From the NCBI RefSeq assembly GCF_027942865.1, contig NC_134516.1, positions 18,990,822-19,054,821 on the forward strand: a DNA stretch of 64,000 nt, read 5' to 3'. The position numbers and the translations under genes were made by a program. Below are positions 3,332-55,500 of this stretch, in pieces. Under the pieces are notes generated by a model. The model worked only from the letters and a program-made list of their open reading frames with translations. It searched no databases and had not been told where the DNA came from. This DNA comes from Odontesthes bonariensis (Eukaryota; Chordata; Actinopteri; Atheriniformes; Atherinopsidae). Positions within the stretch are counted from its first letter, which is position 1. The number at the start of each line of letters is the position of its first letter.

Positions 3332-5226
3332 TGCCGCTCCACATTCATCATAGCATAGAAACAGCACTGGTGCTTCCATCAGGGGAAGGTCCTCTACCCC
3401 CCATGACAGAGAGGAGTCTTCCCATGCACCGGGTGGCCACAGTGGGCCCCATGCACGGATGACATCAGCGCTCAGCCTGGAGGAGCTCTGTGACAGCCGT
3501 ATGTAAATTGAATATGACTAATCGCCTCTCTGCATCACCTCTCGCCACCTCTGGGCCGCCACGATGAAAGATGGAGTGGGGAAGGAGGAGAGGCAGAGAT
3601 CCACAAGAGCGTCCTCTTTTGAAGTGTGAGAGGAGGGCGAGAGGGTAACCAACCAGACGGGCAACACACCAGTCGGCCGGTCATTGTTTTAATTTTAGCA
3701 GAACAATCTAACAAACGATATAAAAGATGGTGAGTTATGGCCGTTGGCCCGCTGTGCTGCGAGTAAAAAAGGGAGCTCTATTTTGGCGTACACAGCATAT
3801 GTGTTCTCTCCTCGTAATGATCATGCTGACCGACATGCCAATCTCCCCCCCCAAAAAAAAAGAAAAAAGAAGAAGCAGTGCATTGCTTTAACAGCTCGTC
3901 TGAAGCCTCTCGAGGTGGCGGTGGTATTTTCATCGATGACCATCCTGCTCTCAGAGCTCAGGGTTTCTCAGTGGTTCACACACAGACTGACAGAGAGGCA
4001 GGGAGAAGGCAAAGTGCTTCCACATGTGGAAGACATGAAGAAGAGGCAGAGGTGTGTGTGACCACCCATACAACTGCAGAATCCCAGGTGCCCCTGCCTT
4101 TGTTCTCATTGTTTTTGTCTGTGTATAAAATGATGTGCGTTCGCATACCTCTGCTGGAAAGTCACCTTGAGAATAAAAGTGTATAAATTCATGCAATCCA
4201 CACGTCCCTTTATGGATTTTATTTTCCCCTTTGGCTCTAGCTTTTACTTGAAAGATATATTGTTTATACAAAAGTTGCACAGTTTTACGTTAGTCTGTGT
4301 CCACGGTTTTGGAGTCAAATCCCTTAAATTAAATGACTTTTCCTCCTTTTTTTTTCCCTGTATTTCTGCACCTCCATGATGAAACGGGTTAAAGAGAACT
4401 CACCAGCAGCCTTAAATGATGTGTAGCGGCCTGAATATTATTTTAATTTTCTCTCAAACTTAGAGCTGAATAATTGTCCTTCTGAGTGAGAATACATTGG
4501 AAAATTACACCTTTTCGCTGCAGGTTGATTTTAAGCTAATGCAGAGCAGGCGAATGATTAACAAGAACCAAGAAAGAGAGAATTTTTATCCCTGTAGGAC
4601 AAATATTTGGATGTTTTGGGTTTTTTTTAAATCTAAAGTAGGGAGGAAAAATACTTAACATAAGAGTTTTTGTTTCCACATGAAAGAAGACCAGCCTTTA
4701 TGCGGTTGTGGGATCCTGGAGATTTCAACTTGGTTTTCTGACCTATTTTTAAGTACTCCTCAAATAAGGTGAATAAACAGATACTTGAGAAAGTTTACCA
4801 CCACTTTTGGCATGGCCAGTGTGTTATTGATGCCCGATGGCCCCCCACACCCCTCTGCACACCCCGCTCTGCTCAAATCACCCCCTGACGGGCAGAGTAA
4901 ACAAGTGGCGCTGTGTATATCCCCCATGTAATCTGGATTTAGCGCGGTGAGATCACGGCTGTTGGAGCAGAGAGCCCCCTGGACGCTCAGCTGCATTGTG
5001 GGAGGTTCCCTCTCAATGCCACCTTTGTCTGTTTGTGTGTGTGGGTCTGAGATAGTGTGTTCCTGTTGACAGGGTAGAATAAGCCAGGAGTAAATTTTCC
5101 CCGTGGTGAGAACCAATCTTTGTACTCATAAAGCTAGAAAAAAAAACAAAAAAAAACTCTCATAAGTTCAGGGTCAGACTGGTTTGAAATTCATTTTTAC
5201 ACTTTCTTTGAAAGCCAGCTGTCCTC

Positions 5227-5236
5227 ACGCACACAC

Positions 5237-5273
<37 letters not shown>
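5227..5273. repeat. (CA)n microsatellite
   Basis: CA dinucleotide tract with two CG interruptions near its left end. Confidence 0.93.
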
Positions 5274-5276
<3 letters not shown>

Positions 5277-6590
5277 TGCTAATGTTATTGACCTCTCAAC
5301 AGCTCACAGACAAACTTATTTCTATTTGAGCCGAATGAGAAGTAAAACTTTGTTTTATCACTAAATTAGAGCTGCAGCTTTCTACAGTTTCCTTCTTGTC
5401 TTTAGTATAAACTTCAGACAATCCTCGACTACCGTTTCATTCTGCCCTACAAAACTAAGCTATATTCATTTATTTGTTCTTTAAAACAGCATGTAAATCT
5501 ACTGAGCTATAAAAGCCACATTATCTAAAAAATAGCCTTACCCAGTTTTAGCTCAAACAAAAACAAAATTTACTTTTGTATATATATATGTGTGTGTGTG
5601 TATGTGAAACACATATAGTTTTTTTGCTTATTAAATTTAGAAAAATGCATTTGAGGAAGTTGATGTGTTGTAAAAATGAGAAATTAGCTGAACCTACTCA
5701 GGGTGGATAATAAAAACCCAGCTTACACCTGCTAAAGGAATGCTAACTAGCTGGAGTCAGAAGCTAGCATCCTTTAGCTAACACAGACCCAAAGATGCTT
5801 CATAGTTGAATAACTGCTATTTGGTCTTGTTACCTCGTTTTTTTATCACACTTTTAAATGTCCTAAATTATAAGTTAGTTAATTAAAAGATTGAAAGACT
5901 CAAAGATTGACACCTTTGATTGTTTAAATGCTGAAGCCGAAATGCACGAGGAAACAAAAAGCTATAGTTTTTTGTGTGTTTATCCCCCGTTTCTTCTTCA
6001 CGTGAAGCTGAAAGTCTCAGCAGTGGCCCAGCAGACCTACAGTAGACCACATAATCGACAATATCATGGTTGCGTGTATATTTCCCGTGTCCGCCTTGTG
6101 TTTCTTCCTCTTCTGTACACTAAAACACGACATCGTCTCTTTTTTCTTTCATTTAAAATGCTGCAATTTGCAGCGACTTTTCGCTGGATTCCAAAGATGT
6201 TTGTTCCTGTGCTGACAACAGATGTTTAATTAAACAAATACGCCGAGGAGCAAAATAAATATGCGCTGTAAAGTGAGCAAGCTAATGTGGAACCATCTGT
6301 AGTAATTTAAGGTAAAAAGAAGAGGAGACGTGAAGGGCCGCTGACTGTAACGGAGGCAGCAGCTGGGAAGGAATTACACAGAACTTCTCCACTTAGCACC
6401 ACCACCACCGTCACAGGGTAGTAATCTAAGAAGCTATTTTAAATGGCTTTGTCTGTGCGTGTGTTTTTAAGCCCGGGCTGTTTTCCTGCCTTCTTGCTCG
6501 TGCTTGCGCGTCATGTGATCTCTTGTGTTTGTCTCTGCAGCTCAAAGCTTCCACTCTTCTGTGTTGATGTGTGTTTTCCAGATTAAACGA

Positions 6591-6615
6591 CACACACACA
6601 CACACACACACACAC
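6591..6615. repeat. (CA)n microsatellite
   Basis: Roughly 12 perfect CA units. Confidence 0.9.
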
Positions 6616-7489
6616 TCTTTGGTCTGAATGACAGGTGGTTTGCCAGCTTGCATGTTTTTTGACGGGGACCCCGGTGTTTTAAGTGTTTTAAGCTTCTTGT
6701 TTTGGTGAATTATTGAGTCAAAACACCAGAAAACTTATTAATATAACAACAATCAGATCTCATGTTGCCTCCCTTTTGTGACACATTTAGCATAGTTACA
6801 CATGCATGAATTACTTATAATAAACAAGTTAAGAGCTTAGAAACTCACGAAAATAGAGAATTTTTATCAGATACGTTACTCCTTAAAATTTGGATTGATT
6901 TTTATTTTTTTAATTGATAGAGACGGAGCTGATGGGAATTATTAGAAATGCTTTTAAGGTGGTTAATTTGCTACAATTGTATGTTATATTTATAGATATT
7001 CAAACAGAAATATTTATAAATAACGTATTTTATTAGTCAGGATGTATGTTAAGGGGTGAATGTGTGTAAAATCCTGTAATTACAGCGACCACATTAACTT
7101 CAATGCGAATCTTTGAGTTTCTTCAGCTTAAAAGCATTTAACAAAGTGGGAATTATAAATGAGATTTTACAGAATTGAACTATGACTGGATTGAATTGGA
7201 CTGTATTTAACTGAAGATGAATTGGAAGCGTCCTGGGTAAATAAAGTGAATCCTTATCCCTGAACACGCTGAGGGAACGCTGAGGCAGATCACCGGTTCC
7301 TGAAGTTTGAGGGGTCACCGTGGAAAGGCGGCTCTCTCTCAGAGGCAGAAAGCACCAGCGGTTCCTGCTTGTTATATAACTCTGTTGTTCTCGGCTCAGG
7401 CTGTCTGTGCCTGATTTTGTGGATGAATTCTAGCTGCTATGAATCCAACTCTTCCCCCTTTTAAACAGCCGAGATTTCCAGTGTGTATT

Positions 7490-10059
7490 CTCCTTTTATT
7501 GCTTTCATTTGCATATAAATTAAATCTATATTGTGCCTGCGAGGCAGACTATGCTAACTATGCAAACGATCCCTGGCTTTTCTTTGTTTTACAGATAAAC
7601 CCTCGGCTTCCTCAATGACAAGGTGGGAGGGAGAAGTGTGTGTGTGTATGGGGGGGGGGATTCTCTCTCTGTTTCATAATTGTATGAATTTTAAATACAC
7701 TGTCATAAGAGCCTCTTCCGCATTCACAGCAGGGAATGAAACTATCATGATAATATTAGAGCTACAGGGTTAGCTGACCGTGAAGAGCCAGGCAGCCTCC
7801 TCACCTCTGTTCACACATGCAGGCCAGATGGCCGCAGGGACTGCATTTAGAATCACATTGTTTCCTAAACATTATCCACCACAACTCATTTAATTCCTCA
7901 GGACGAGGAAACGCGTTCAGATTGCATTAAATGTTCTTTAACTGGTGTAAAAATGCAGAGCGGTGCATCGATTCTGTTGTTTTTTTATATGAGCAGAAGC
8001 AGATTTCATCACGTTTAGCATAATTTAAATTCATTGTCACAGTGAAATCAACTCCTATGAATATTCATTCGTATATTATAGAGAATAGTGACATTAAATT
8101 AGACCCAATGTCACTGTGGGTCCCCTGGAAACCCCTTCTTGGACCCCTGGAGGGTTTCACTGGCTGCAGGGAAGCTGATAGTCATTACAGGACAGTTTTA
8201 TGCACAAAGAAAACCAAAACTGCTCCTGCTGCTATATCTGAAATGCAACATGAAAGGTTAAAACCTATTAATTAACTTACAAATATAATAAGGATGAGCT
8301 GTCTTACACTCTTTGTTTTACTTGTATGGCTCTTTTAAACCCTCTTTTCCTAAATAAAACCCTTTTATTTCCAGGTGCGGTGATGTTCTCCGAGATATCC
8401 ATAAATAAAAGCTAAAAAACGCTAATAAGTTAGGAGATAAATTGTTAATTAAAACTTGAATCTTGTGGAATAACCTGCCTGTGGAGTGACAGCGAGTCCC
8501 TGGCCGTCACTGAAATCAATTATTAGCTCGCTATGCTGCGCGCTTATTAACTCTCGGCTCTATAGGAAGAGGAACACAAAACGCAGCGCTTGAAATAATT
8601 ATGAAAAACTCCTGAAACGCGGAGGCCGTGAACTCCTCCGCTGCGGACCTCTGCAGGCTCGTTAATTAAATAATCCGATCTGAGATCAGTTGTATGTGTG
8701 TGATAAAAACACAAAGGGTGGAAATCATGCAGGACGCCTTCCTGCTTCGTCCTTAAATATTTTCTGTGTTTATATTCCTCTGTTCTGGGCACGTTTTGGC
8801 CTGTTTTTTTCTGTGGCTTAAAGAGGGATATTTTGGAATAGGAGGCTGGGGTTTGGAGTAAATCCGTGCTGGGGGAAGCGCGGAATATTGAAAGTGTGAT
8901 GAAGCTCGACTTGATGATAGAGGTGAACGCGAGGGCACGTGAAAAGCAGCCAAAAAGCTTCCCAGGCATGATAAAAACAAGATGCTGAGAAAGAAAAATG
9001 ACGGAGGAGCTCACACGTTCGGATTTTTTGCTGCTAATATAAAGATGTTGCTTCACATATTCTGTTAGTAATAAAAACCAAAATCCTGTTTTCATTTTCA
9101 AAGACCCAACCTTTCTCTCATTAACACCGGTTTGAGACGTCTGATGAGTTCAGTTTGCGGGTTGAATCAAAAGAAGGGAAAATATAGGTTTTTTTCCACG
9201 CTTTAGGAATCAAAGTGTGACCCCGGAGTCACGGAGTTCACAGCCAACCTCAGCCTGGGGTCACGCAGGGCCAAACAAAGTGCTCCATTCACCCTGAGGA
9301 CGCGCAGGGCCTCTGCAGTTCCTTAAGGAAAGGGCCAGAGTTGTTTAATAGGGTGAGATGTTGTCCAAATAATTAGAAACAAGCAGTGAGCGAGGCTGTT
9401 TAGCTGTGTGTCATACACACCACCTATTATAAAACTGGGAGAAGCCTCTTATTATTTACAGTTTGCTCCTTTAAACGTGCCGTTTAATATCGGGGTTTAT
9501 AATAGCCTAATTATAATAATAAGATATAATAATGATAATTTAGCTACGTTTCCATTTGAAAATGGGAAATAAGTTAGATGCTGTTTCCATAATCCGGTTT
9601 ATCTGTGTAAACAGATGAAATGAAGAATTATTCAGCCCGTTCTCCTTTTTTTTTATTAGTTTTTTATTATTATTATTATTATTTCAGACTACATGTGAAC
9701 ATATTAAAATCTTTGGCTTGAGTCTGCGGACTGATTTGTTGAAGGAAAATATGGCGCTAACATGGAGAACCTAACGAGCCCAGACATCCTAAAAACAGCG
9801 AGAACAGACTGGAAAGAACCGGATGAGAGATGAGCCTCAAATCAAATATACTGTGTACAACATGATAACTGTGTGGCTATATAAACTTTAATAACGCTCG
9901 TTCATTTATATAATATGTCCATATACTGTTACCATAAACAGAAATCTGTGTGTTTTTTTTGTTTTTTTAAATAGCGTTTCGCCTCTTCCAGTTCATTTAT
10001 TTTAGCTCCAAAAGTCCAGCGTCCCACGGCGGCCCTGTGTAGGAGGGGCCCGGGGCCGC
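7490..10059. other. en1 downstream flank, candidate non-coding regulatory DNA
   Basis: About 2.6 kb between the last microsatellites and the en1 stop. It has no recognised transposon and contains many homeobox-like TAATTA/ATTA cores (for example around 8,440-8,680) within moderately GC-rich islands. This composition is usual for conserved non-coding elements beside developmental genes, but conservation cannot be measured here. The longest open frame on the minus strand (8547-9101, 184 codons) has no recognisable domain and is judged spurious. A (TTA)n tract lies at about 9,664-9,684. Confidence 0.35.
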
Positions 10060-10379: not shown

Positions 10380-12908
10380 CTGGCGTGGAAACAACAATGG
10401 GAATAAAATATTTATTCTAAGGCTCGACAAAGGACACAAGTGGAGCTCAAAGCTCCAGCTCACATCGACCGAGCGCCTCACTGCTGGGTGATGATGGCGC
10501 CTGATTATCTGCTCTCTGTGCTCAAATGTAGGTCAACAAACTGTCTTGGTCTCCATATCTGCTGCACATTAGAGTCGGCCTGCTCAGGGGCTTCACCCCA
10601 AACCAGAAACAACTTAAAACCAACATCAGACATGAAACTACAACGCATTTCAAAGCGTTATTGACGCATTTTCACATTCCAGCGTGTTAACTGAGAAGCC
10701 TCTGGTCTGAAAATAATAACAAAAAAGCCTAAACACGTTTGAATCTGATTGTTTGGCTTCCTTTTAACCAGACGTTGTCTAAATAAAACACATCGCTGGT
10801 TGATATGTTGACAGGATCGCATGATTATTTAATTAGTGTGCGTAAAGGTGAGCGAAATCAGCCAATCAGAGGACAAATATCCCAATAAACATGAAACCAA
10901 ATGTGTTTTACACGTTGGAGAGTTTAAGATGGTGATCAAAAAAAATTAACAGAGCTGTTAAAGAACAGGTTATTTTGTCATCTTGAGCTAGGCCACAAGC
11001 CGCCGCCACGGTTCAAATAAAGCAACTTTCGCTTCTGACAGGAGTAGACGGAGACTTCTACTACACACCGTCACCGCTTTCCTCCTAAAAATCCCACATA
11101 GCCAGCAATTCAATTAACGCAATCAATCCAAGATATGACCAAATCTACTTCATCACATAAATACGACCGACGAGAAATGCGGCTTCCTGTTCAAATAAAA
11201 GCTTAAAAGCGACATTAGGCGTTTAGGAGGCGCGTTAAATGAGTCAGTAGACTGATATCAGCTGATATCTCTGAGCAAAAGCGGTGGTTTACATGCACTG
11301 TGTACAGCAGACATAAAAAAGGACACAGCACGTATCACGTAGGCCCAGAAAAATTCAAAATATGACCAAATATTGGATGAAAAAGCAGCGGAATGGCGTC
11401 TAACTTCCACTGCAGCGCGTAATAACAAACGACCCAGTTAAAAATCAGTGTCCTCATCGTGTTTTGGACAAACACAACACACAAAAAGATACAATCCAGA
11501 TTTCCCAGATCGAAACTGGTCTGTCTTACCCAGCTGATCAGCAGGCGTTTGTTTGGGATTTCTCCCTGGTTGTCAGTTTAAAATCCTCCAAATTCGTCTC
11601 CAAACACGGAATCTATCAACTCCACCGACCCCAACCGGAGTAAAACAAACTAAACAAATGCAGGAATTCTGTTTTTTTTTTTAAATAAACTACAACCATG
11701 GTGGAGTCTTTGGCTCACCCCACCACTACCTCACATTTTTCTGCAGTCTGTCTTGTGAAAGATGGTGAAATCCGTTCAAAATATCATATAAAACACAACA
11801 TGTGGTGTTTATACCGTCCTGCGTGGTGTTAGTGGCGAAATAAGGTGGAATAAACTACTATTAATGTGTAATATTCAGTGAGTAACTGGTATTGTTGTGG
11901 ATTTTTTTTTTTTTACAATATGTCAGCTATGTTGTTTTGATGCGTATGAGCACATTTGTTTTTCCAGATTTCACTCATATAAAAGTCTAAAATGCTCATC
12001 TTTGATGTTTTATGCTACTTTAAATTAATTAAATTTAATTACAATTAAAATTATGGCACTTAAATATGACTTTAAATATATAGAAACAAACTTAGGTGAA
12101 CTAGCTTCAGCCTCTTGTTTTAATATTATCTTTATTTTGGTAATATCTTGTGTTTTTAAGCCTTTTTTATATATATATAAAAAAATAAACTTAATATTTA
12201 AAGATTTTCTTTCAGTTTTTACTGAATGAGTTAAAGCCAAACCAAGCTTATGTTTTTCTGTTTCTTATGGTCAACATGTCCGACCCTACGAAGGAGTTAA
12301 ATATCTGTGGAAAAAAAAAAAAAAAGCCAGCAAAGTTCCCCGGCTCCGCGTAATTCGGGGACTACTAGCGCCTTACCAGATGAGGGTCGGTCCGAGTAGC
12401 GCGTACAGTAAACCCAAGCGGGCCACAGCAGCGGCTGGCTCTCCTTCGTTAAAGGCGGAGACCCTGCGTTGCTGCCACTCATAGTAATTGACGACGGGCT
12501 GTCCGAGTATCTGCCAGTCCCGTTGCTCGCCGCTTCGCCTTGCTTGGACGAGTTCTGCTTGGACGAGGGCGACGAGGACGTGGACGACGACGAGGAGGGC
12601 GACGACGCGGTGCTGTCGCTGCTGCAGTTGGAGTCCAGGCAGAGGCTGCCGGCGTGCGGCGGCCTCGCTCCCAGCGGGTTGACGTTCTCCCTGCCCGGCG
12701 TCTGGCTCCGGTCGCGGTAGCTCGGCTCCTTCCTGCAGCCGAAGTCCGGCCGGAGGATGTTGTCTATGAAAAAGTTCGTGGTTCTGTGGGCCTGCTGGGC
12801 GGCCTGGTGGGGTAAAATCATGGCAGGCGATGGGAGGTTCGGCGACAGGGACATGCTCTCGTCCTCGGTCGAGTCCCGGCCGCCGTTGGGCTCCTTGCGC
12901 TCTTCCAT
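10060..12908 (-). CDS. en1: Engrailed-1 homeodomain transcription factor (2 exons, 283 aa)
   Basis: Nuclear homeodomain repressor that patterns the midbrain-hindbrain boundary and ventral limb/fin ectoderm (family knowledge). CDS joins 12908..12377 and 10379..10060 on the minus strand: 532+320 bp, 283 codons plus stop. The donor GTAAGG follows base 12377 and the acceptor CAG precedes base 10379; a glycine codon is split 1+2. Visible domains: EH1 Groucho-binding motif around residues 43-57 ([12 protein letters not shown] core), a Ser-rich tract around 97-124, the PBX-binding WPAWVY hexapeptide region around 162-175, a basic KLKKKK stretch just before the homeodomain, and a homeodomain around 193-252 with helix 3 [14 protein letters not shown]. 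The C-terminal tail [11 protein letters not shown] followed by an acidic end fits EN1 rather than EN2. It is much shorter than human EN1 (392 aa from memory), as the long Gly/Ala/Pro stretches are missing. The ATG at 12908 is the first in frame that gives the family N-terminus. Whether this is copy a or b cannot be decided here. Confidence 0.96.
10380..12376 (-). other. en1: en1 intron
   Basis: Single intron of 1,997 bp with GT and AG ends, at the position I know from vertebrate EN genes (just upstream of the basic linker before the homeodomain). It is AT-rich, with short A/T runs at 11670-11690 and 11900-11915. I see no coding sequence or recognised repeat inside. Confidence 0.85.
12377..12908 (-). 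CDS. en1: en1 coding exon 1
   Basis: Encodes the N-terminal 177 residues plus the first base of a glycine codon. It carries the EH1 repression motif, the Ser-rich low-complexity region (dense TCG/AGC codons, CpG-rich) and the PBX-interaction motif. The exon ends at CATCTG before GTAAGG. Reading on past the donor gives 25 unrelated residues, so the splice is well supported. Confidence 0.95.
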
Positions 12909-13460
12909 AGCTGGTGATGGTGAGGAAATCTCGGCCTCTCCACGCCAAATTCCACTTGTTGCTCGCGCTCCCGTCCCTCTTCGGTATCCAATTTAGACGG
13001 TCAGCATGCAAAACAGAAACAGCCCTTTTCACTAGAATAAACACCAGTGTTGGTTTATAATATCACCTACAGAGGCGACATGTCTCCTAATAGCCTTCCG
13101 AGACCTGGCATAGCCAACAGCTCCACGCAGTCACCAGTGCCCCTTCCTCTCCCCGGTGCGGCGTAATATCTCTGTATTCACTCTTCCCAAACTCTCCTAA
13201 AACCGTTACCCTCCCCACCACCACCCCTCCCGTGTGTTTTTTCCCTTTCTCTTACACCCAGCCGGAAGCACGTGTGCGCGTACACACGTGCTACGGGCCA
13301 ATCGGGTCGGCAGCTCGTCGCTGTCACGGGTGACGACGTCCAATCGGAGCTCAGGAGGGTCTGCGCGCGGGCGCGCGTTGTCCCGCACAGCTGGATCAAT
13401 AACCGAGAAACGCGCGCGCGCGCATGTACACAACAAAACAAAAACAAGAGCGCGGCCACC
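12909..13460 (-). promoter_or_regulatory. en1: en1 5' UTR and CpG-rich upstream region
   Basis: The block directly upstream of the en1 ATG becomes strongly CpG-rich at about 13,260-13,450, with many CG dinucleotides and a CGCGCGCGCG run near 13,415. This contrasts with the AT-rich sequence on both sides and fits a CpG-island promoter for a developmental gene. A TATTATAA-like stretch on the minus strand near 13,060 could be a TATA-type element, but the transcription start is not determined by what I can see. Confidence 0.5.
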
Positions 13461-19250: not shown

Positions 19251-20827
19251 TTATTCAAACGCAGCTGAAAATAGGTGTGTCTTCAATCCACTGAGTGTTT
19301 CAGCTGATCTGAGGCTTTCTGGGAGTTTGTTCCAGACATGTGGAGCATAGAAGCTGAATGCAGCTCCTCCATGTCTGGTTCTGACTCTGGGAACTGATAG
19401 AAGACCGGATCCAGATGACCTGAGGGGTCTGGAAGGTTCATACTGGGTCAGGAAGTCACCGATGTATTCTGGTCCTGGACCATTCAGAGCTTTATAGAGC
19501 AGCATCAGAGCAGCATCAGAGCTTTATAGAGCAGCATCAGAGCTTTATAGAGCAGCATCAGAGCTTTAAAGACCAGCACCAGAACTTTATAGAGCAGCAT
19601 CAGAACTTTATAGAGCAGCATCAGAGCTTTATAGAGCAGCATCAGAGCTTCAAAGACCAGCATCAGAGCTTTATAGAGCAGCATCAGAGCTTTATAGAGC
19701 AGCATCAGAGCTTTATAGAGCAGCATCAGAGCTTTAAAGACCAGCATCAGAACTTTATAGAGCAGCATCAGAGCTTTAAAGAGCAGCATCAGAGCTTTAA
19801 AGACCAGCATCAGAACTTTATAGAGCAGCATCAGAGCTTTAAAGACCAGCATCAGAGCTTTAAAGAGCAGCATCAGAGCTTTATAGAGCAGCATCAGAGC
19901 TTTATAGACCAGCATCAGAGCTTTAAAGACCAGCATCAGAACTTTATAGAGCAGCATCAGAGCTTTAAAGACCAGCATCAGAGCTTTAAAGAGCAGCATC
20001 AGAGCTTTATAGAGCAGCATCAGAGCTTTATAGAGCAGCATCAGAGCTTTATAGACCAGCATCAGAGCTTTATAGACCAGCATCAGAGCTTTATAGAGCA
20101 GCATCAGAGCTTTATAGAGCAGCATCAGAGCTTTATAGACCAGCATCAGAGCTTTATAGAGCAGCATCAGAGCTTTATAGAGCAGCATCAGAGCTTTATA
20201 GACCAGCATCAGAGCTTTAAAGAGCAGCATCAGAGCTTTATAGACCAGCATCAGAACTTTATAGAGCAGCATCAGAGCTTTATAGAGCAGCATCAGAGCT
20301 TTATAGAGCAGCATCAGAGCTTTATAGACCAGCATCAGAGCTTTAAAGACCAGCATCAGAACTTTATAGAGCAGCATCAGAGCTTTAAAGACCAGCATCA
20401 GAGCTTTATAGAGCAGCATCAGAGCTTTATAGAGCAGCATCAGAGCTTTATAGACCAGCATCAGAGCTTTATAGACCAGCATCAGAGCTTTATAGACCAG
20501 CATCAGAGCTTTATAGACCAGCATCAGAGCTTTATAGAGCAGCATCAGAGCTTTATAGACCAGCATCAGAGCTTTAAAGAGCAGCATCAGAGCTTTATAG
20601 ACCAGCATCAGAACTTTATAGAGCAGCATCAGAGCTTTATAGAGCAGCATCAGAGCTTTATAGACCAGCATCAGAACTTTATAGAGCAGCATCAGAGCTT
20701 TATAGAGCAGCATCAGAGCTTTAAAGTCTGTCCTCTGATGGACAGGCAGCCAGTGTAAAGACCTCAGAGCTGGACTGAGTTGGTCCACATCGTAGCATCG
20801 AGAAACACCGAGTCTTTGTCGATTCAT
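19251..20827 (-). pseudogene. L2/CR1-like LINE ORF2 C-terminal relic expanded by a coding minisatellite
   Basis: On the minus strand the sequence begins with the typical reverse-transcriptase C-terminal segment of L2/CR1-type LINEs (LSPALRSLHWLPVHQR, then DFKALMLLYKAL). After a huge internal expansion it ends with the usual tail (RTRHGGAAFSFYAPHVWNKL, then LKTHLF). The expansion is the 21-bp array annotated separately; it multiplies the LMLLYKA heptad 57 times without a stop. A truncated repeat unit near 19,505 shifts the frame, so the upstream 440-codon frame and the downstream 84-codon frame are not continuous. This is a dead transposon fragment, not a host gene, although the long open frame would fool a gene finder. 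The catalytic RT core and endonuclease are absent. Confidence 0.75.
19486..20727. repeat. 21-bp minisatellite, about 58 copies
   Basis: Tandem unit AGCATCAGAGCTTTATAGAGC (plus strand), about 1.24 kb long. Variants alternate TATAGAGC, TATAGACC, AAAGAGC/ACC and AACTTT, giving ALMLLYK, ALMLVYK, ALMLVFK and VLMLVFK/VYK heptads on the minus strand. Variants recur in blocks, which suggests higher-order duplication. One partial unit at the left end (about 19,505-19,515) breaks the phase. Confidence 0.97.
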
Positions 20828-32738: not shown

Positions 32739-36550
<3,812 letters not shown>

Positions 36551-37116
36551 GTTTAGCTGAAGCCGTGCACCCCCACCCAACCCCCAACCAATTCCAGCTT
36601 GTTCTCAGTTCAGCTGTAAACATGCCGCCAGCTTACCTGCTCATGTCTGTAGGTGAGAAGGAGCACGACAATGTCGACATTTTACCATTTAATGAAAAAT
36701 ATGAGCTCATCTCGAATCTGATGGCAGAAACACGTCTCAAAAAAGCTGCGACAGGAGCAACAAAAGGCTGAAAAAGTGAGTGGAACTAAGAGGAAACAGC
36801 TGGAGTGTCATGTCCATGGGGTTGAGTCTTTTCTTGTTTTATCATGTTTTAGTTTATTTCATGCCTTAGTTTTCTTAGTTCAGGTCTTGTATTTAGTTTT
36901 GCCATTGTTTCCCCCACACTCATTAATTCATTCACTTCACCTGTCGATTTTTCTCAGCTGCATCCAGTCATTCATCAGTTCCCTCAGTATTTAGTCTCTC
37001 TGGTTTCTCACATTCATTGTGAGTTCCTTTTCACTTTACATCCTTCACCACAGTCACAGCCAAGATAAGTACTTTCTAGTTATGCCACGTCATGTTCCTT
37101 GTTTTGTTTTGCCTTA

Positions 37117-37560
37117 TAGTCCGTGAGCCAGAGGGGTTGGTCGTTTCCGAAAAAGTGGCAAAGGTTACCATACCTTTTCTGAAAGCCTGGAATCTCAGCT
37201 TTTCAATGATATATGATGGCCATCCGACAAGAGTAGCTGTTTTGAGTTATCACACTTAATGTAAACTAAGGTTGAGAAAATAATGCATATAAAAAAGCAG
37301 AACACTGACATAACTGAAAATCTATATTGGACATGTTGGAATATTTTAGTTTGTTATGTTTGGTATCATTTTAAAGGGGAGACTCTGGGCCTTCTTTTTA
37401 AATCCTTTTGTGAACATTTTGGATAAGTACAGCCAACCCTGGAGCTCTTCAAACTTTTAATCACACACATTTTCCTGCCATTTCCGCCTAAGTCATCTTA
37501 TGTCTTTTAATCCTGTGGCACCAGGGAGCATCATAGAAACATAATCCAAACACTGAAATA
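37117..37560 (+). repeat. Left terminal inverted repeat of the XPG-type transposon
   Basis: Pairs with about 39,860-40,310. Shared blocks include CTGAAAGCCTGGAATCTCAG, AACTAAGGTTGAGAAAATAA (with small changes), and the inner CCTGTGGCACCAGGGAGCAT block. Confidence 0.85.
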
Positions 37561-37877
37561 CTGGCATGACCCTAAGGATTCAGAAAATGTATAATTTACC
37601 CATATTATCTGATTTGGAGGGGGTGATTTTCAGTCTTATTTCAGACATGGCGTTTGAGAAAATAATGCGTATAAATTAAGCAGAACACTGACATAGCTGA
37701 AAATCTGAAAACAGTATCACAAATAACAAATGAGACATGGATTCCTATGTTTTAAGGTGTGGTAAACCCAATTATGACATTGCCATTACTGTAAGAGGTC
37801 AAGGTCATGACCTTTAGGCATGGTCAATGACATTTTATGACATTTTTGCACAGATTGCATCATTCAAGGCCACGACA

Positions 37878-39847
37878 CTAATCAAACTCCTCGTTGGAAT
37901 CTTCATCAGAGGAATAGGATTGTTCCTCATCAGCAAGATCATCCTTCTGGTTTTTGCACTGTCTTGCATGGCATAGGTCAGTGCAGGCCAAGTTGTTGGC
38001 AACACACTGACATGATGGAGTGACACAGTCCCTCTTGCATGAGCAGGACAGAAACTCAAGCGCTGCTTGTGGACTAGAGTATGGCTACCCGACCGAAGCC
38101 CGACGGGCCCGGTCGGAACCCGACGGGCCGGGCCGGACTCGGACAAAAAATTTGAATGTCTTGTCGGACTCGGGTCGGGCTCGAAAGCAAGCAGACATCG
38201 TGAAAATTCTAAACAGCCAGAGGACAGGTGTCAGTTCATTGCAAACGTCAGTTTTTGTGATAAACATAAATAATTGAATATGCATAAATGAAAATGTTGG
38301 TAGGCTATTCGTGCCTCATGCCGTGCAGCATGCATCTGTGTGCATCTGTGGTCTGTGCATGCTCGGTGCGCACGCACGCATATCGAACATTCGAACAACT
38401 TTACATTAAACACGTGCGATCAGTGCAGCCGAGCTCAGTTGGCTGGAAGCGCTATGAAGGACATTAAAAGAAAAATAGCTTCCGGAGAACTGAAAGTCGT
38501 GGAAAATGAGAGGGGGAAATCCACTGTGTGGAAACGCTTTAAGCTATAATGGATTATGGTGGATAATGGTGCGCTGTCACCAATGTGTATTTACTGATTA
38601 GGGTGCGCCGTCTTGCGTTGGTCACTGGTCTCGGGCTTCCGGCGGGCTCGGACACAAATATTTTAATTAATCTCGGGCTCGGGTCGGATTTGAGAACTTT
38701 TCTGTCGGTTGAGGGCCGGGCTCGGACAGAAAAATCCGGCCCGAGCCAGGCTCTATTGTGGACCAATGGAGACATTGAACCAGTCTATGGAGAGCTGCAA
38801 GTCACCATCTTGGGCCACTCTAGACCACCCATGCTCAACTGGGGAAGGAACTTCAGGGTTGTTCTCGAGGCATCTTCTCCAGATAGCACCTTGATAGTTA
38901 GCTCTGAGACAGTGCTTCCTGAGAGAATCTGAGCATGGAGGTAACTGCCAGGATTCTATGCCTTTCTTTGCACAAAAAAGTGCATACCTCATTTCATTGA
39001 TGTTGGTGATTCTGGACTTGGAGCTGTACATTTGACATGTGAACTCCTGTAAGGCTGCATACAACTCAGGTGTCATTGTCCAGTCTGCCCCAACCTTCTG
39101 ACAGGTCTCACAGAAGTTTTCGTTCTTCTGAAGAAGTTTTAGGGCTGACACTTTACCACGACCTGCAAATGCACTTACAGTGTCGCAGCCTGTATATGCG
39201 TGTAAACCAGGCAAAGCCTGACACAACTGTGAACCCAGACCACGAGCGAGTTGTGAGATGTTTATGTCACTGGTGCGATTCTTTGTCCCTGTCTTCAGGA
39301 ACAGGTCACATGTGAGTACGTCACTGGTAGCCAGGCTTATCACCAAGACATCAGTGTCATCAGACACAAGGATGACAGATTTGTGACCAGTCCTTGAAGC
39401 ATGGCAAGCATGGACTAGCACACGGGTGTCAGCCTCTTCCTGAGTGGACGAAAGGTCTGCTACCTTGTGCACTCCCTGTTGGGTCAGCTTGTAACACTGA
39501 TCTTTGGCTGTAGTGTACAGAACCTTTTCACCGAGTCTTGTTCTAGACTGTTCTTTGCCCCACTTTTTGAGCAAGAAGGTAGCAAGATTTGTTTTGTTCT
39601 TGTTGCTTTGTAGGAATTTCTTCCATTGTTGAACTCTGTGCCCTGCAGTGATCTGTTTGACCTCTGTGCCTGAGTCTGCACCTCTGGCCACTCTCTCCAT
39701 GTGTTTGATAGAAGCCTCATCATATACATCAAAAACAATGTCAACACGGGTGCTGCGGCTTGCTTCAGCTAGCACAGTGGACAAGGCATAGTCTGCAATA
39801 TCAGCAAATGTCTTGCCATCACCGTTCAGCTTCTGAACAAGTGCCAT
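37878..39847 (-). pseudogene. Transposon-encoded XPG/FEN-like nuclease gene, interrupted by a hAT element
   Basis: The 364-codon minus-strand frame from the ATG at 39,847 ends at a stop created by the hAT insertion (about 38,753). Its layout follows FEN1/XPG nucleases: an acidic STQEEADTRVLVHA motif at residues 133-146, SDDTDVLVI at 162-170, and TGCDTVSAFAGRGKVSALKLL at about 219-239. The last resembles the GCDY/SDY plus helix-hairpin-helix block (GIGxxxA) of FEN1. Skipping the insert and one copy of the 8-bp duplication, the frame runs on without a stop from 38,066 to TAG at 37,878-37,880. That part adds a Cys-rich tail (LSCSCKRDCVTPSCQC, then DLCHARQCKN), probably metal-binding, and an acidic end. 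The interruption is thus recent and clean. It is a transposase-type gene, not a host gene, and its activity as it stands is doubtful. Confidence 0.75.
38075..38755. mobile_element. Fourth layer: 681-bp hAT-type non-autonomous element
   Basis: Flanked by perfect 8-bp duplications TTGTGGAC at 38,067-38,074 and 38,756-38,763, the hAT signature. Ends are TAGAGTATGGCTACCCGACC on the left and, reverse-complemented, TAGAGCCTGGCTCGGGCCGG on the right. Sub-terminal regions are rich in GGGCTCGGGTCGG-type repeats. No transposase inside, so it moved in trans. It inserted into the nuclease gene and adds a stop six codons after the junction. Confidence 0.9.
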
Positions 39848-39859
39848 GCCATCTGCTTC

Positions 39860-40310
39860 ATTTGAGTGTTTGGATTATGTTTCTCTGATGCTCCCTGGTG
39901 CCACAGGATTAAAAGACATAAAATGACTTAGGCGGAAATGGCAGGAAAATGTGTGTGATTAAAAGTTTGAAGAGCTCCAGGGTTGGCTGTACTTATCCAA
40001 AATGTTCACAAAAGGATTTAAATGAAAGCTCAGAGTCTTCCCTTTACAATGATACCAAACATAACAAAATAAAATATTCCAAAATGTCCAATATAAATTT
40101 TTAACTATGTCAGTGTTCTGCTTTTTTATATGCATTATTTTCTCAACCTTAGTTTACATTATGTGTGATAACTCAAAACAGCTACTCTTGTCAGATGGCC
40201 ATCATACATCATTGAAAAGCTGAGATTCCAGGCTTTCAGAAAAGGTATGGTAATCTTTGCCACTTTTTCGGTAACGGTTTCCATATTTTGAGGCCCTGGC
40301 TCACGGTCTA
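39860..40310 (-). repeat. Right terminal inverted repeat of the XPG-type transposon
   Basis: Reverse complement of the left terminal repeat, with scattered mismatches and small indels. It ends GGCTCACGGTCTA next to TTA. Confidence 0.85.
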
Positions 40311-40999
40311 TTAGTCATGTTTTGGTTTTTCCACAGTCAAGATTTTGTCTTCCGGCTCAGCCGCAATTTTTGTAAACCTTGTTTTTTAAATAAATAATCA
40401 AGTCTTGATTTTTGAGAGTCCGCATTCCGTGTCCTCCTACGTATCACACCCACCCCCAGCTGACATGGAGGAGCATGTTGGAAATAATTGGGTTAATTAA
40501 CAACAGGTAAGTAACATGAATTGGTATAAAAAAAAAAAGAGCACCTTAGAGAGACAGAGTCTCCTCGGGCAGCTCTGCATTAAAAACAGACCTAATTCAA
40601 TCCTGGAAATCACTAAATGGACTCAGGAACACTTCCAGGAATCATCGTCTGACCTGCCTGCAGTCCAGATGTTTCACCATCTGAAAACATTTAAGATACA
40701 ACAAAGAAGATTCAGGACTGCTGAGCAGCTAGAATCCTCTTATCAGACCAGAATGGGACAACATTCCTCTCCCAAAGGTCCGGCAGCCGGTCTCCTCAGT
40801 TCCCAGATGTTTACAGATGTTGTTAAAAGAAGAGGGGATGCTACACAGTGGGAAACATGGACCTGTCCCAACTTTTATGAGACGTGGTGCTGCCATAAAA
40901 CTCAAGATGAACTGATATTTTTCATGAAACAGTAAATTTCTCCCTTTGAGCTTTTGTTTTTCTTTCATTTCATCAGCAGCAATAAAACAACAAATTACG

Positions 41000-42760
41000 A
41001 AACAAAACCCTTAAAAAAATAATTATCAGGAAGGCACAGAGATCTTGTTATGCTCTCTAACTCTGCTGCAAGACAGAATGACCTTTAGTCAGGATTAGTA
41101 CAGTTAACTGTGACTCCAGGCTGTGGTGAGCTGTGCACGACACACTGTCCGCATTATGCACCGCAGCTTCAGAGATTATCTCGCCCTGCGGCGCCGTCAC
41201 AGCGCATGTTAGAGCCCTGCTGCGTCATGCACACAAGCCATACGGTGAATCAAATGAAGCAGTCCATCATTAGCAGCCTGCAGACGTTAAACTGTGCATA
41301 ATCAGGTAAAAGCTGACGCATTAAATTGGTTTGTAAGTGCTTTGGTTAGACATCATAGAGGATTTTATTTTAAACAGTATGACGGCTTTTAAGAAAATAC
41401 ATGTAAAGACAAGAAATCGTCCTCCAAAATGTGACACCACAGGAGGAACAAACATGTCAGATGCACAGACGTATTTACTGTGGTGAATGGTGCCGGGAGA
41501 GTGTTGAATCCTATTGCGTGAGTGACATGAATGTCACCATCATTTACTGATAGAATATGATGGCACTGACTTGCCAGCTTACTTCATTTGTTTTGTGCAC
41601 GTGTCACACATCTGTCTATCGATGCCAAACCACTGGGCCGCGGGCAGAAACCATAACAATATCAAATATGCAGCTTCAAGAGGCTGAAATTGTCCCTTAG
41701 TTCAAAGAATAGATGGAGATCTTACAATCAGCGCTGGTCTTAGAAACTAACCATGATTGTTTTCTCACCCTAAATCAGTAATGTTATCACATAAACCCAA
41801 CCAGGAAGTGATGAAAAGTATGATTGGTGTGCGTTACAATACAATGCACCGTCCATCTACTCCAACTTCCAGCCTCATTGGGAGGACTTTATGGCTTCTT
41901 ACACAAAATGATTGAGGAATACGTCTTAACTGATGTGGAAACACTGATTTGAGTCACATATCCTTCTTGCTGCTTCTACAAGGGAGCGTGTCATTATTGT
42001 AGGTATTTAAGAGTATGAAGAAATGACAATTGGAGACCTTAATGGAATATTGGACAGTTGTTTTCTCAAGTCTTTGGGTTTTGATGCCATTTCAGCCAGT
42101 CCTGCCCCTCGCCTGTGAGAGTCATTTAGAATAACAGGAATGGGTGGAGGAAAGATTGCGTGAGATTATCCGTCTCTTTCAGCGTCTGTACGAAGCAGCA
42201 AAAACCTAAAAAGGTACAGTTCACGTTTCAAAAAAGATCAAATACGCAGTGTAGCTGTGACATTTCCTCAGTGGTGACAGAAGGTGGAGATGTCACAGTT
42301 CGCTGTGTCTGGTGTAAAGGAGGCATCACATGTACAGCAGTGTTGTATTTTCCATGACCCTGAGTCTGCAAGCTCTGCTGGGCAGAGTGTGACGTAAATG
42401 TCTTCATCAGTAGATTTTCCAGCCAGTCAGCGGCAAAGATGGTCGATAGCTGCGTATGCCCTGCATTAAACTACTAATGATAACAAAGTACGTTTCTTTT
42501 TAGCCTTTTATCTGCAACAGAAAGTATTCAAATCCAGAATTATCCTCTGTGAGTTCACTGCTTACACTGTTTTGATTGGTAGAAGCAGAGCATTCCTTTC
42601 TGGCCCTGGATTGTGATGTTGGAAATGTTTGCGACCGTAAACTCTTACTGCATGGTTCGGATAGTTATGCGTGTATTTTCGGTTGCATTGGCCTCATCAT
42701 CTATTCAAATTGGCTTATGAATTAAACACGAGAGTCAGAGGCTGTCGGTCAAACTAGAAT
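41000..42760. other. Intergenic DNA, no gene seen
   Basis: No recognised exon or repeat; short open frames only. Confidence 0.4.
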
Positions 42761-49585: not shown

Positions 49586-52500
49586 GTGACGCACACACAC
49601 TGATCCTCACCATGTAATTAGTGTTTTTCTTTCCTCCTGGAGATAATTATATGTACACCTTTGACTTCACCCACCGGGGATAATAACTGTCAGCGAAACT
49701 ACAAATAAAACAAAAGCAGCGTGTCTTTTATTTCCAGATGACGTCCCAGATGGAGGCAGCCAGCCAGGCGGACCTGGTCTTTGTCGCGGTGTTCCCTGAG
49801 CACCACTCCACGTTGGTGGCATTGAAGCCGGTGCTGGCAGGGAAGACTCTGGTGGACGTGAGCAACGGTTTCCGCATCAGCCAGTACGGTCCCTCTAATG
49901 CTGAACTGCTGGCAGACCTTTTTCCGGAGAGCTCTGTGGTCAAAGGGTTTAACACCATTTCAGCCTGGACGCTCCAGATGGGACCACGTGATGGAAGCAG
50001 GCAGGTGGGATACATCCGGTGCAATCTGTTGGTTTCCTTAGCCAGGAAAGTGTTTTTGAATTGGCTCTATATGAATGAATTGGATTATTTTATAAATAAT
50101 TATGATTACAATTAGGGTTGCAAAATTCCCAGAATTTTCAAAGACGGAAACTTTCCATGGGAATTTAAGGGAATTAACGGGAATTTATTAGCCTGGCTGA
50201 CGCGTCCACAATCTCGATGAGATGGTGGTCTGGGAACTAGGTGTGCATTTTCTCGTATTTGAGGCGTGGTTTACGAATGCCTAGAGCCGTTTATTGGGCG
50301 CTACGAATGTCTATCAAATGACGTCAGGTTCTTCCCATGCTGCTTTGCGCGCGATTCATAGCCAATTGTATCACTTATACCAGATGACGACAGAAATTCG
50401 ACGAGGAAGAAGAAAAAAAAAGTAAAATAAAAGTAAACTTGCGCTCTAAGCTACTTAAATTGACAACAAAGTAGGCCTATATGCTATATTCTACATGAAT
50501 TTTTATGTTGTAGAGTTGTGAATTTATTTTATCAATGGAGAAATTGAGCAGCCTTGCTTTGTTGTCTACAGTAGTAGATCAACCCTCATCTTACTTTGAA
50601 GCTCCCAGCTCCCAGAAGTGACGTCAACGAAGCTTTAGCAGCAGAAAAGCTATCAGGCTTGTGTTGATAATAATAAACTCCTGGACTATGTACAAACTTC
50701 CAAATGCATCGTTTTGTGAGTACAGACCATATTTGTGCTACTGTAGAAGTTTGGTGTTATGGCATGTGATTTTAGTGTGGTAATTTTGGAGATACTGCCA
50801 GGGTCCGTCAGCGCTTGTACTAAGCTATTCGGGATAACTCAGTAACTCAGCTGATGTTCAGCCAATATCGGAAAAACTTCGGGTGGGCTACTTGGCTGGA
50901 TGTCACGGTTCAAATGACCCTAGGGTGAATCTACTCCGAAACACTTTCTAAGGCTGCATCGAACGGTAACGTTGTGTCCGCTGTCATGTTGGATTAACAC
51001 TCTACAAGCTTCGTGTAGCGCATAGACGTCGTCATCGTCTTGCTGCTGCTGCTGCTGCCCCCCCGTTCTGTGATTGGTTCCCAAACTCTGGCAAAAATAA
51101 GGGCGGTGGTTTCCAGGCTGACTTTGCAGTGAGAATGAAATCGAGCGCAAAGCAGCATGGGAATTCCCAGGCTAGGGAATTTATGGGAATAAACTGGGAA
51201 TTTTCAAAATTGAAGGTTGGCTCTTCTAGGGAACTTAAATATAGTTGAGGAAAGTATATTTTAGCATAATCTTGACTAAAACAAACAGATGGAATTCCTC
51301 AATCACATGCACAGAGCACACTGCTTACTGCACGGCTATTGAGACCACACCCCCTAGTGGCACTGTGCATGCCTCCATCACATGTACAGAAGATTGAACC
51401 CAAAACTCCTGTTTTTGTTCATCCATGAAACCAGTAATTAGAACGTGTTCTATTCTACTTACCATACCATACCTACTTTATTTATAAAGCACTTTATACA
51501 CCCACAGGACCAAAGTGCTATACACAATCATAAAATACAATACAATCATAAAATAGAAGGGTCAAATATAAAAGCAGTACTAAAGTAATTAAAATGTAAA
51601 CACAATAAAACAAAGTCAAACATCTCAGATTGTGCCAAAAGCCAAAGAAAAAAGATGGGTCTTAAGCTGGGATTTAAAAACAACAAGTAAAGGGCTACTT
51701 ACAAATAAATCTGAAAACATTTTGTATGGATGTTTTCTTATGACTTCTGTTTATATTTATGCTTGGATATAATATATTCCCAGTTAGTTCTCCTAAATTC
51801 CCATTAGTTCCCATTATTCCCATGGAAAGTGTCCAATATGGAATATATCCAAAATTCCCAAGCTTAACTTCCCATGGAAATTTACCAGAAACTTTCCGCC
51901 CCTTTGCAACCCTAATTACAATGAGTTGAATTCCAATTGGCTGGAATTGGACTTTATTATTTAAGTGCCTTGAGATGACATTTGTTGTATTTAGCGCTAT
52001 ATAAATAAAAATTAATTGAATTGAATTGAATCCGCAGGGAGAACCAGTGGAGGATGTGCTGTTGGATAAACAGTTTGAGGGAGAAATGTTTCATCCTCTT
52101 GTGATAATTTCTTTGCAGGTTTTCCTGTGCAGCAACAGTCAAAAAGCCAAGAACTCAGTGAAGCAGATCTGCCACAGGATGGGCTTCATCCCTGTCGACA
52201 TGGGCCTCCTTTCCTCCGCTCTGGAGATCGAAAACCTCCCGCTCTACCTGTTTCCCTCCTGGCGGGTCCCCATCCTCTCCACCCTTGCTCTCTTCATCTT
52301 CTTCTACCTGTACAACTTCACCCGAGACGTCCTGCATCCCGAAGTCACAGCAGGAAAGAGCTTTTTCTACAAAATGCCCATCGACACTGTAAATGTCACT
52401 CTTCCCTCTGTGGCCTTGGTGATGTTGGCGTTGGTTTACACGCCCGGTTTGTGCGCCGCCTTCCTCCAGCTGTGGTGGGGCACCAAGTACAATCGCTTCC

Positions 52501-55500
52501 CCAACTGGCTGGACGGGTGGCTAACCACGAGGAAGCAGTTTGGGCTGTGCAGCTTCCTGTGTGCAGCTCTTCATGCCATTTACAGTCTGTGCCTTCCCTT
52601 GAGGAAGTCTGCCCGCTTCAAACTCGTCAACTTGGCTTATAAACAGGTCTGTGCAGACGTAAGATGCAACATCTTGATCAAACTTTTTAAGTTGTGTCAA
52701 TGGGTTTAAAGTAACAGACATGCACTGCTTTTCAGTGATCTTGTAGCAACTAGTTTGTGTAATGTGTGAATTAACAGGCTAAAAACCACCGCCAGAGACC
52801 AAGTTTTGCACCTTGTTTTTACCGTTTTCATTCACCTTTTCCTGCTCTCCAGATACTTAAACTGCCTCCAGCACAGCAAAATGAAATTAAAAGCTTCTAT
52901 CCAATCAGATTTTTTTAACTGGGCTTTACAGAAACACTTCAATGGACACCGGCTGGAATAGGAGCAGAAGAAGTTTATGTTGTCGCGCGTTTTCTGGCAA
53001 AATCTTTCTCGAGAGGGAACTTTGTGTTCTAGTGATGAGCATCTTGGATTGTAATGTCTTTACTAACGATTCCCAGTGCCTCTAGCGTGCATCTCCTCAT
53101 ATCTTGCACATTGAGAGCATTATGTATCGATAGAAAAATGGCAGCAAAGCACTTTGTTGTATGCAACTGTCAGGCTGTCTGTTGTTCTGTGGTGTGAAGG
53201 AGAATGATGGACGGGCTTTATCCTGACTCTGAGTGAGCTAACAGACCTTCAGAAGGACTGATGCTCAGTTTGGATCATTGCTGGGGTTGTAAATGATGTT
53301 TTGTTTGGTGAAATGTGAGTTTAAGCTCGAGGTGTTTTCATTGCTCGCTGCTCTTGTTTCTTTGCTTATGACGTAGATTTTTGGATTTTTACTGTTTGTG
53401 ATGCAGCTTCCTGTCTAACTACCAGTTAAAAACCTTTTATGCTTTTTAAACCTTTCAGTCGTCTCTCTCCAATTAGTTACTGTCACCCTTACAAGTGGGG
53501 AGTCTTTAGCTATATCGCTCAGTTCCTCTTGATGAAGGGTTACTGTTTCTGTGAAATTCAGATGGTTGCATGATTTTATAGGTGTTTTAAAGCCATTTTT
53601 AAAGCAAAAGAGTGGCACTGAATGCCTGGGTACACAATGCGTGAACACAGGGAAGATACAAACCCAGGAAAGGCTTGTTTCTATTGCGACTGGCTAAAAT
53701 AGCAGCAATAAGGCAGAAGACAAAAATATTCATCAAACCCGAATAAAATACAGTGGAGTTGATCAGTTAATCAGTTCAGTTTAGTGTAATCCGTGGATGA
53801 CATGACTGTAACGGTGAGCGTGTGTACATAACAAACAGACTTTTGGGGTAACAATGACATCTATGTACCAGTTTCTCTGCATCTATTTAACTTTACTTGG
53901 GAGAAACATATGTGTACAACCACATTTGACAGTTCTGCACCAACCTTCCAGATGTCTTCCTTGGTCGATATTACTTTGGCCCAGTGTCTGACATGCAGAG
54001 TCCGCCATGAGCAACGATTTTGGATCGGACCCAGTCGAACCAGCAGATGGTGGAACAATTATGAACGAGCGTAATCATTGTTTTGGTTTTGAAGTCGCAG
54101 CCAAAGGAGAATCGGATCACTCAGAGTTGTCTTCTCGTGTATTTTGACCCGTCGGTGTGGACGTTATCGGCCTGGTATGATGACTCCAGCGTTTGGGGGG
54201 GATTTGTACGTTCTTATTTTAAGAAAGAAAGCTCATAAAGTTGTTTTTTATATATATGTTTTTGTTACAAATAGAGGGATAAATATCTGTTTAGAAATCT
54301 CCAGATTAGTGAAGTCAAGCCTGAAAAATGGTGGCAGATTGTGAGTATAACTCATCTGTTACCTTCTCCATCCCTCATCCTCCCCCACACGGCTGGAATC
54401 GCACTAGAAGATGACGTTTTATAGGAAGTATTGTGGTTTTATGCGTTTTCTATGACTAAGTGACCTTTGGAGTAACTTTACCTTCCTGGGTTTCGAACAG
54501 AGACAGATCTGCTCACACAATCCTGCCTCCAACTCGTCCGTTTTTCAGGTGCACAGACGGGCCAAAAAGCACCAAAGCACACTTGGTGCCAGCTGTTGTG
54601 ACATCACTTCAGCATTTGTGAGGTCATAAACGAAGCATAAGGAGCATCAACGGCGTTGTATTAAGTTCTGAATGGGCCACGTTTAAGAGAAAGACTCCTT
54701 GTTGCCTTCAGACTGCAAAGTATTGTTTGATTAGATCATCCATATCTTAGATCAGCATACAGTAATACATGTGAGGTGTGTCTGAAGGTGAAGCAGGATG
54801 ATTACTTGGGAAAACAACAACTATATTTCTTATAAATTTACTCCCCTCCACTTTTTTATATATTTTTTTAAACTATACATTCCCTCCCTTCCTCAGCTTT
54901 GTAATCTTTATGATCAATTTTTTACCTACAATGGCAAAAGATGCTGTTGTACAATTAAGTTAACACTCTTAACTTATGGATTACAGTTAAATTTAATGGT
55001 GTTTTTCCATTTTGTGGTATAGTACTGCTTGCTTTATTTGCTACTAAGGTTCCAAGCTAGCCTAGCTGATGGTATACAGTGACGTAGAAACACATTTCAG
55101 AAGGCCAGCATGCAGTTTATAACACACCTCACGTATTTAGTGACTTTTTAGAAATGCGTTTTGTTTTGCGTGTGTGTGTGTTCAGGTGAAGGCGGGTGTG
55201 GAGGACTCGTGGGTGGACGAGGAGGTGTGGAGGATGGAGCTGTACCTCTCCGTGGGCATCATGGCCCTCGGGCTGCTCTCCCTGCTGGCTGTCACCTCGC
55301 TGCCTTCGGTGGCCAACACCCTCAACTGGAGGGAGTTCACCTTCATACAGGTACGCATACACGGATCATCCGGCTCGCAGGGCTGCGTGATGGGGAAAGA
55401 CACTGCAGGCGGGCTGACATGAGTCTCATTCATGTGCTCACAGTGAACTCAGTGTTTACACCCCTGAAGCTGCCTCATATTCTCAGTTAAACTTGTGCTG

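Follow-up and report, generated by a model that had tools for sequence, protein, structure and literature searches.

The element at positions 37117-40310 of the 64,000-nucleotide stretch of Odontesthes bonariensis DNA analysed here (the window; assembly GCF_027942865.1, contig NC_134516.1, 18,990,822 to 19,054,821 of the forward strand) is a dead, internally deleted and insert-split cut-and-paste transposon of the Academ type, ordinary as a genomic feature. The nuclease frame that it carries is settled as part of a larger protein of the DDE and FEN type, and not as a stand-alone transposase. In its undeleted form the element measures about 5.7 kb, about 540 bp of it in each inverted arm, and its gene encodes a single protein of about 1,500 amino acids, in which a Cys/His region, a DDE-like core, a FEN/XPG-like domain and a CXC-like tail follow one another. 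The nuclease is, by its sequence, an integral domain of this transposase protein. We hold the identity and the architecture of the element with high confidence, and consider it probable that it belongs to the nuclease-bearing AcademX lineage of Academ, as a deleted copy of such a DDE plus FEN element.

The limits 37117-40310, proposed in a first-pass annotation together with a TTA target-site duplication (TSD), are borne out by the inverted ends and by the flanks, with TTA on either side (37114-37116 and 40311-40313). The ends of the element read TAG(T/A)CCGTGAGCC, and the two termini of the window copy are TAGTCCGTGAGCC and TAGACCGTGAGCC. The left arm (37117-37655, plus strand) has its full length and adjoins the 3' end of the gene; the right arm (39860-40310, minus strand) adjoins its 5' end and has its inner end shortened by a deletion. 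The two pair in inverted orientation over 267 nt at 93% and 163 nt at 98%. Long inverted ends were thus correctly noticed, but the length of about 450 bp then given to them is that of the shortened right arm, the arms of undeleted copies measuring about 538 nt. The EEAD, DDTD, GCD and GRGK motifs are present, as described, in the main open frame (38753-39874, minus strand), which contains the FEN/XPG-like domain (38764-39854, minus strand), begins at the deletion joint (39854-39860) and has no start codon ahead of the first catalytic Asp. A Cys-rich tail does follow the nuclease (frame 37878-38084; CXC/TCR-like part 37878-38074, minus strand, below the Pfam cut-off), but it is cut off from the main frame by a nested insert of 681 bp (38075-38755), foreign to the Academ-type element. 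We call this non-autonomous insert hAT-like because it has short inverted ends and is flanked by an 8-bp duplication, TTGTGGAC (38067-38074 and 38756-38763), both of them hAT traits. At least 34 matches to it occur in the genome at 94-99% identity (34 of the 56 matches found with the element span essentially the insert alone). A scan of 36500-41000 with Rfam gave no match.

Copies were sought throughout the 945-Mb genome, and loci were fetched from C27, C28, C24, C6 and C7. Two copies longer than that in the window, which share its ends and its frame, are found in this genome: the C27 copy (6,213 bp, TSD CTA) and the C28 copy (5,689 bp, TSD TTA), both with their two ends kept. Capture of the frame from another element is not what these copies indicate. 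The C27 copy has an uninterrupted site where the window copy has its nested insert, and carries about 718 bp of extra sequence (L009 6142-6859), which resembles a long interspersed nuclear element by its frame, lies inside the transposase gene and is absent from C28 and C6. Its 513-nt inverted arms are 97% complementary, and those of C28 96%; this 513-nt core is included in the arm length of about 538 nt. The C7 copy, with the same ends and the TSD TAA, is deleted to 1,148 bp. Compared with C27, the deletion in the window copy removed two-thirds of the gene, from its 5' side, along with the inner right arm (C27-locus positions 4060-7777, about 3.0 kb when the extra stretch of C27 is left uncounted). 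None of the five loci compared shares its joint: the two sides lie far apart in C27, C28 and C6, and one side is absent in C24 and C7. With the left arm as query, 31 matches were obtained from 19 candidates and grouped by hand into 13 loci of the window family and two loci at 67% identity; outside the five places named above these loci are known from their matches. At a protein identity of at least 75%, no fewer than six loci (on C16, C27, C6, C28 and two on C24; 110 of 504 candidates scored) hold pieces of the nuclease gene, and the five of these outside the window have stops or broken frames, the window copy itself being truncated and split. The finding of the same ends and arms at other loci, with 3-bp duplications in all eight fetched copies that have both ends, excludes chance.

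The closest intact relative, L044:972-5606 (on C20), has an open frame of 1,544 codons in which the Cys/His region, the DDE-like core, the FEN/XPG-like part and the CXC-like tail are arranged in this order from the N- to the C-terminus; the window copy retains just the last two. Copies of the window family match residues 176-1536 of L044 piecewise, several of the pieces with stops, and the first 175 residues found no match in these copies. The genome holds three matches to the first 980 bases of the L044 locus, itself included. Viral contigs, contigs of prokaryote genomes and plasmids, when searched for relatives, yielded none. The nuclease frame is not, as first proposed, a gene of its own and the only one of the element: the longer copies and the intact L044 show that it forms the C-terminal end of a larger DDE-type protein, about 1,500 residues long. 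In an alignment of the core from nine sequences, many of them partial, a DNID motif is present in all five sequences that cover it, a second Asp motif of the D(Q/E) type in seven of seven, and DxxxE followed by GG in all nine; we read this D...D...E-like arrangement as a DDE core with three putative catalytic residues. Pfam gave no match to the core in the window family. The relative L045 matches DUF6589 above the cut-off of that model (E = 6.4e-8), and the Cys-rich tail of the window copy comes close to the TCR model (E = 0.0011; 19.7 bits against a cut-off of 23.5).

The DDE and nuclease parts of the protein diverge equally between families, and it is for this reason that we regard the nuclease as integral to the transposase. 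Amino-acid identity between L044 and the window family is 49.8% in the DDE part (512 residues, C27 copy), 48.9% in the linker (141 residues) and 49.3% in the nuclease (355 residues, window copy); the proportion of nonsynonymous differences (pN) is 0.352 and 0.347, with that of synonymous differences (pS) saturated. Between close copies pN and pS are similar (0.023 and 0.024 for L026/L045; 0.011 and 0.017 for L035/L036), which is what dead copies should show; with pS saturated across families, the test for recent selection is uninformative.

The nuclease is FEN/XPG-like by sequence, not by fold. A profile of 14 copies (12 after filtering by the program), compared by hhalign with a profile of four archaeal FEN-1 proteins and five host exons, gave a score of 30.6, and 29.1 against the four archaeal proteins alone; the controls reached at most 19.8 over 60 column permutations, and 14.9 with the reversed profile. 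In a relaxed alignment, nine positions of Pyrococcus furiosus FEN-1 that we take to be catalytic, the basic K/R pair included, fall in order on identical or conservative residues of the 373-residue window frame: D27, D80, K87, R94 and E152 on D8, D49, K57, R64 and E146, and E154, D173, D175 and D236 on D149, D173, D175 and D231. The GIG of FEN-1 (244-246) aligns with GRG (238-240). D49, K57, E147, D149, D173, D175 and D231 are unchanged wherever they are covered in the 14 profile copies, with D8 (9 of 10), R64 (10 of 12) and E146 (12 of 14) less strictly kept. Weak single-sequence matches were obtained to the flap endonuclease Xni (E = 0.014 for the window frame and 0.098 for L044, two of the five proteins searched) and, below the cut-off, of the window frame to PIN_4 (E = 0.0073).

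Several results weigh against a FEN/XPG assignment. The hhalign probability is just 9% (E = 0.0037 in a single comparison), the confident part of the alignment amounts to 60 columns around GCD/GRGK, the other motifs aligning in the relaxed form only, and profile alignment to FEN in global mode gave nothing useful. No protein scanned matched the Pfam XPG models, so that the profile search against XPG_I and XPG_N suggested by the first-pass annotation yielded nothing above cut-off. A genome-wide search with XPG_I found five places, none in copies of the element, which we read as FEN-family exons of the host itself; a search for FEN-1 relatives by way of these exons led to no confirmed loci. Sequence searches of the PDB with the window frame, L044 and the profile found no FEN match: the best match of the window frame was CalC (E = 0.00038, residues 5-70), L044 had none, and the best for the profile was a SWI/SNF subunit (E = 0.82). 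A relation to CalC was set aside, as the match covers residues 5-70 only, was not repeated with L044 or the profile and has no bearing on the motifs. Finally, a single-sequence structure model of the 373-residue frame had a mean predicted local distance difference test score (pLDDT) of 40.4 and was unusable. The FEN/XPG reading proposed at the outset thus keeps the profile alignment, the register of residues and the weak Xni and PIN_4 matches in its favour, but not the Pfam cut-offs, the PDB searches or a structure model.

The TSD is of 3 bp in all eight fetched copies with both ends, which come from three families, and of 4 bp in none. As fetched, these read TTA, CTA, TTA and TAA in the window family, GTT (C26) and TTC (C19) in a relative family, and TTT and CAG in the short family described below. 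In the window family, about the first 17 bases of the tip are common to both ends except at position four and at one or two bases close to the inner edge, with one tip base changed in C28. The left tip of the window copy, TAGTCCGTGAGCCAGAG (37117-37133, plus strand), is followed just inward by a side-specific box, and such boxes are identical in 5/5 and 4/4 of the arms that retain the tip. Inward of the box the arms are homogenised, being 94-97% alike within a copy. The two copies of the relative on C26 and C19 are 99.2% alike, their own two arms just 55.4%, and these arms nevertheless align in register with that of the window family (scores of 616 and 533, where 100 shuffles for each gave no more than 186 and 223, respectively). 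Similarity is highest in a segment of 127 columns, at 74.8% identity (E = 1e-18), and in one of 255 columns, at 68.6% (E = 3e-18); whole-arm identities of 54-55%, which come from free alignment, have little meaning by themselves. All four blastn matches between the loci of the window family (L009) and the relative fall within the arms and none in the gene, the protein identity of the two genes being 28.2% and that of their coding DNA 40.1% (688 codons). In these two families the arms are therefore of old origin, and constraint on their conserved inner part is likely. This part lies about 240-490 nt from the tip, at approximately 37358-37606 in the window copy (plus strand; limits transferred from L009 2257-2504), and binding sites would be the simplest reason for its constraint. 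When the arm was compared with the flanking sequences of L044, L045 and L055, all six comparisons remained in the range of the shuffles.

How might the two halves of the protein work together? DDE enzymes are known to attach 3' ends to the target at staggered positions, and FEN-type enzymes act at junctions of single- and double-stranded DNA. Possibly, the protein binds sites within the arms through its core and its zinc-binding parts, upon which the DDE core would nick the 3' ends and join them to the target with a stagger of 3 nt. The donor DNA that the 5' ends of the element still carry would then form a 5' flap beside a gap, a typical FEN substrate, and its cutting by the FEN domain would free the element, in analogy to TnsA beside TnsB in Tn7. 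By this analogy the nuclease may cut the non-transferred 5' strand, a role to which we give somewhat less than an even chance. More tentative is the complete scheme, that of a built-in two-nuclease transposase, DDE for the 3' strand and FEN for the 5' flap, as a eukaryotic counterpart of TnsA/TnsB, with the decisive binding sites 240-490 nt inside arms of about 500 bp.

The main rival to cutting of the 5' strand is a role at hairpins of the arms: the nuclease may instead resolve the hairpins or cruciforms into which arms of about 500 bp could fold, or serve in the repair of gaps at donor or target. It is an established property of FEN-type enzymes that they work at junctions between single and double strands, and in single-stranded form the arms of a copy, being about 94-97% alike, could fold into long hairpins; in the relative family of the same protein layout, however, the arms are only about 55% alike and hairpins are hardly to be expected. 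We consider such a role unlikely, but to be taken seriously.

The AcademX lineage was reportedly defined by Kojima in 2020. According to a later account, AcademX elements have the nuclease and TSDs of 3-4 bp, and AcademH elements a helicase in place of the nuclease and TSDs of 9-10 bp, the difference in TSD length being suggested to go with the enzymes (PMC10045372). The Academ connection drawn in the first-pass annotation thus agrees, in TSD length and nuclease, with what that paper gives for AcademX. Curated Academ consensus elements of bivalves have a mean length of 5,565 bp (PMC10294476), and Academ is listed for zebrafish, medaka and stickleback (PMC4746887). The probable assignment to AcademX draws on TSD length, nuclease and size. 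Unfavourable to our interpretation are the lack of an intact gene copy of the window family among the loci listed (110 of 504 candidates scored), the failure to find inverted ends of L044 when these were looked for, and the lack of any paper, in a search for one, linking DUF6589 with Academ. A literature search for Academ, XPG and transposon returned no paper, and one for XPG nuclease and transposase seemingly unrelated papers only. Might the DDE core, then, come from another superfamily, with a FEN domain acquired independently of Academ? That the core has no Pfam match in the window family and that L045 matches DUF6589 would fit this, but the nuclease, the 3-bp TSD and the length of 5.7 kb all agree with the AcademX and Academ traits given in PMC10045372 and PMC10294476, and we find a separate origin improbable.

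A family of short, non-autonomous elements (L054-L076; for example L055 342-2684 and L056 749-3075) of about 2.3 kb has the ends TAGGCCGTAAGG and a decayed part of the nuclease domain; both of its copies with two ends have 3-bp duplications. The 23 copies fetched are 93.2-99.6% like their own majority reading, and because this reading is shifted in frame after GCD, short nuclease-only elements were dropped as a functional class. That the short family multiplied without an intact nuclease frame could suggest that the nuclease is a passenger, a captured host or foreign gene with no part in transposition, but the family shows only that it is dispensable in cis. Since the nuclease shares one open frame with the DDE core in two long-frame families, diverges at the same rate as the DDE part and has mostly kept its catalytic positions, a passenger is a slightly poorer explanation still than a separate origin. 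Finally, a self-contained transposon with the FEN/XPG protein itself as its transposase, such as a window copy with both ends, a TSD and the nuclease frame alone, or the short copies L054-L056 with ends, 3-bp TSDs and remnants of the nuclease domain, might evoke, is scarcely credible given that longer copies with the same ends have a DDE core ahead of the nuclease, that the window frame is split by the insert and has no start codon before the first catalytic Asp, that the window joint recurs in none of the five other loci compared, and that in the majority reading of the 23 short copies the frame is shifted after GCD.

The integral nuclease of a DDE-type protein is thus the reading that we retain, and with D49, K57, R64, D149, D173, D175 and D231, and the candidate binding segments of the inner arms, the part it plays in Academ transposition becomes directly testable. 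As for the surroundings of the element, an inverted pair of 75 nt at 81% (36681-36755 and 40862-40936) brackets it at a distance, possibly an older repeat hit by the insertion. Frames at 12297-12992, 33446-34288 and 52020-52709 look to be engrailed, a collagen/C1q-like gene and a STEAP-like exon, which would presumably fit the vertebrate order EN1-C1QL2-STEAP3 with the element between the last two. A long minisatellite at 19424-20758, with a unit of about 21 bases, is open on both strands and repeats QHQSFIE and ALMLLYK.

In its nuclease, its 3-bp TSD (3 or 4 bp in AcademX), its length of about 5.7 kb and its DDE-like core, the element resembles AcademX; a possible difference lies in the arms of the window family, which are very long (about 540 bp), nearly identical and conserved in segments of their inner part. 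With AcademH it shares the name of the superfamily, but AcademH has a helicase and TSDs of 9-10 bp, against 3 bp in eight of eight copies here, and no helicase was matched in the frames scanned against Pfam. The likeness to FEN-1/XPG nucleases lies in the nine presumed catalytic positions, including the K/R pair, that align in the relaxed form; in contrast to those enzymes, the domain of the element remains below the Pfam cut-offs, is fused behind a DDE-like core and is followed by a CXC-like tail. Tn7 pairs TnsB with a TnsA that is a separate protein, similar to restriction enzymes, and no homology is claimed; the likeness would be one of function, in that an additional nuclease could cut the strand that the DDE enzyme at its side leaves uncut.

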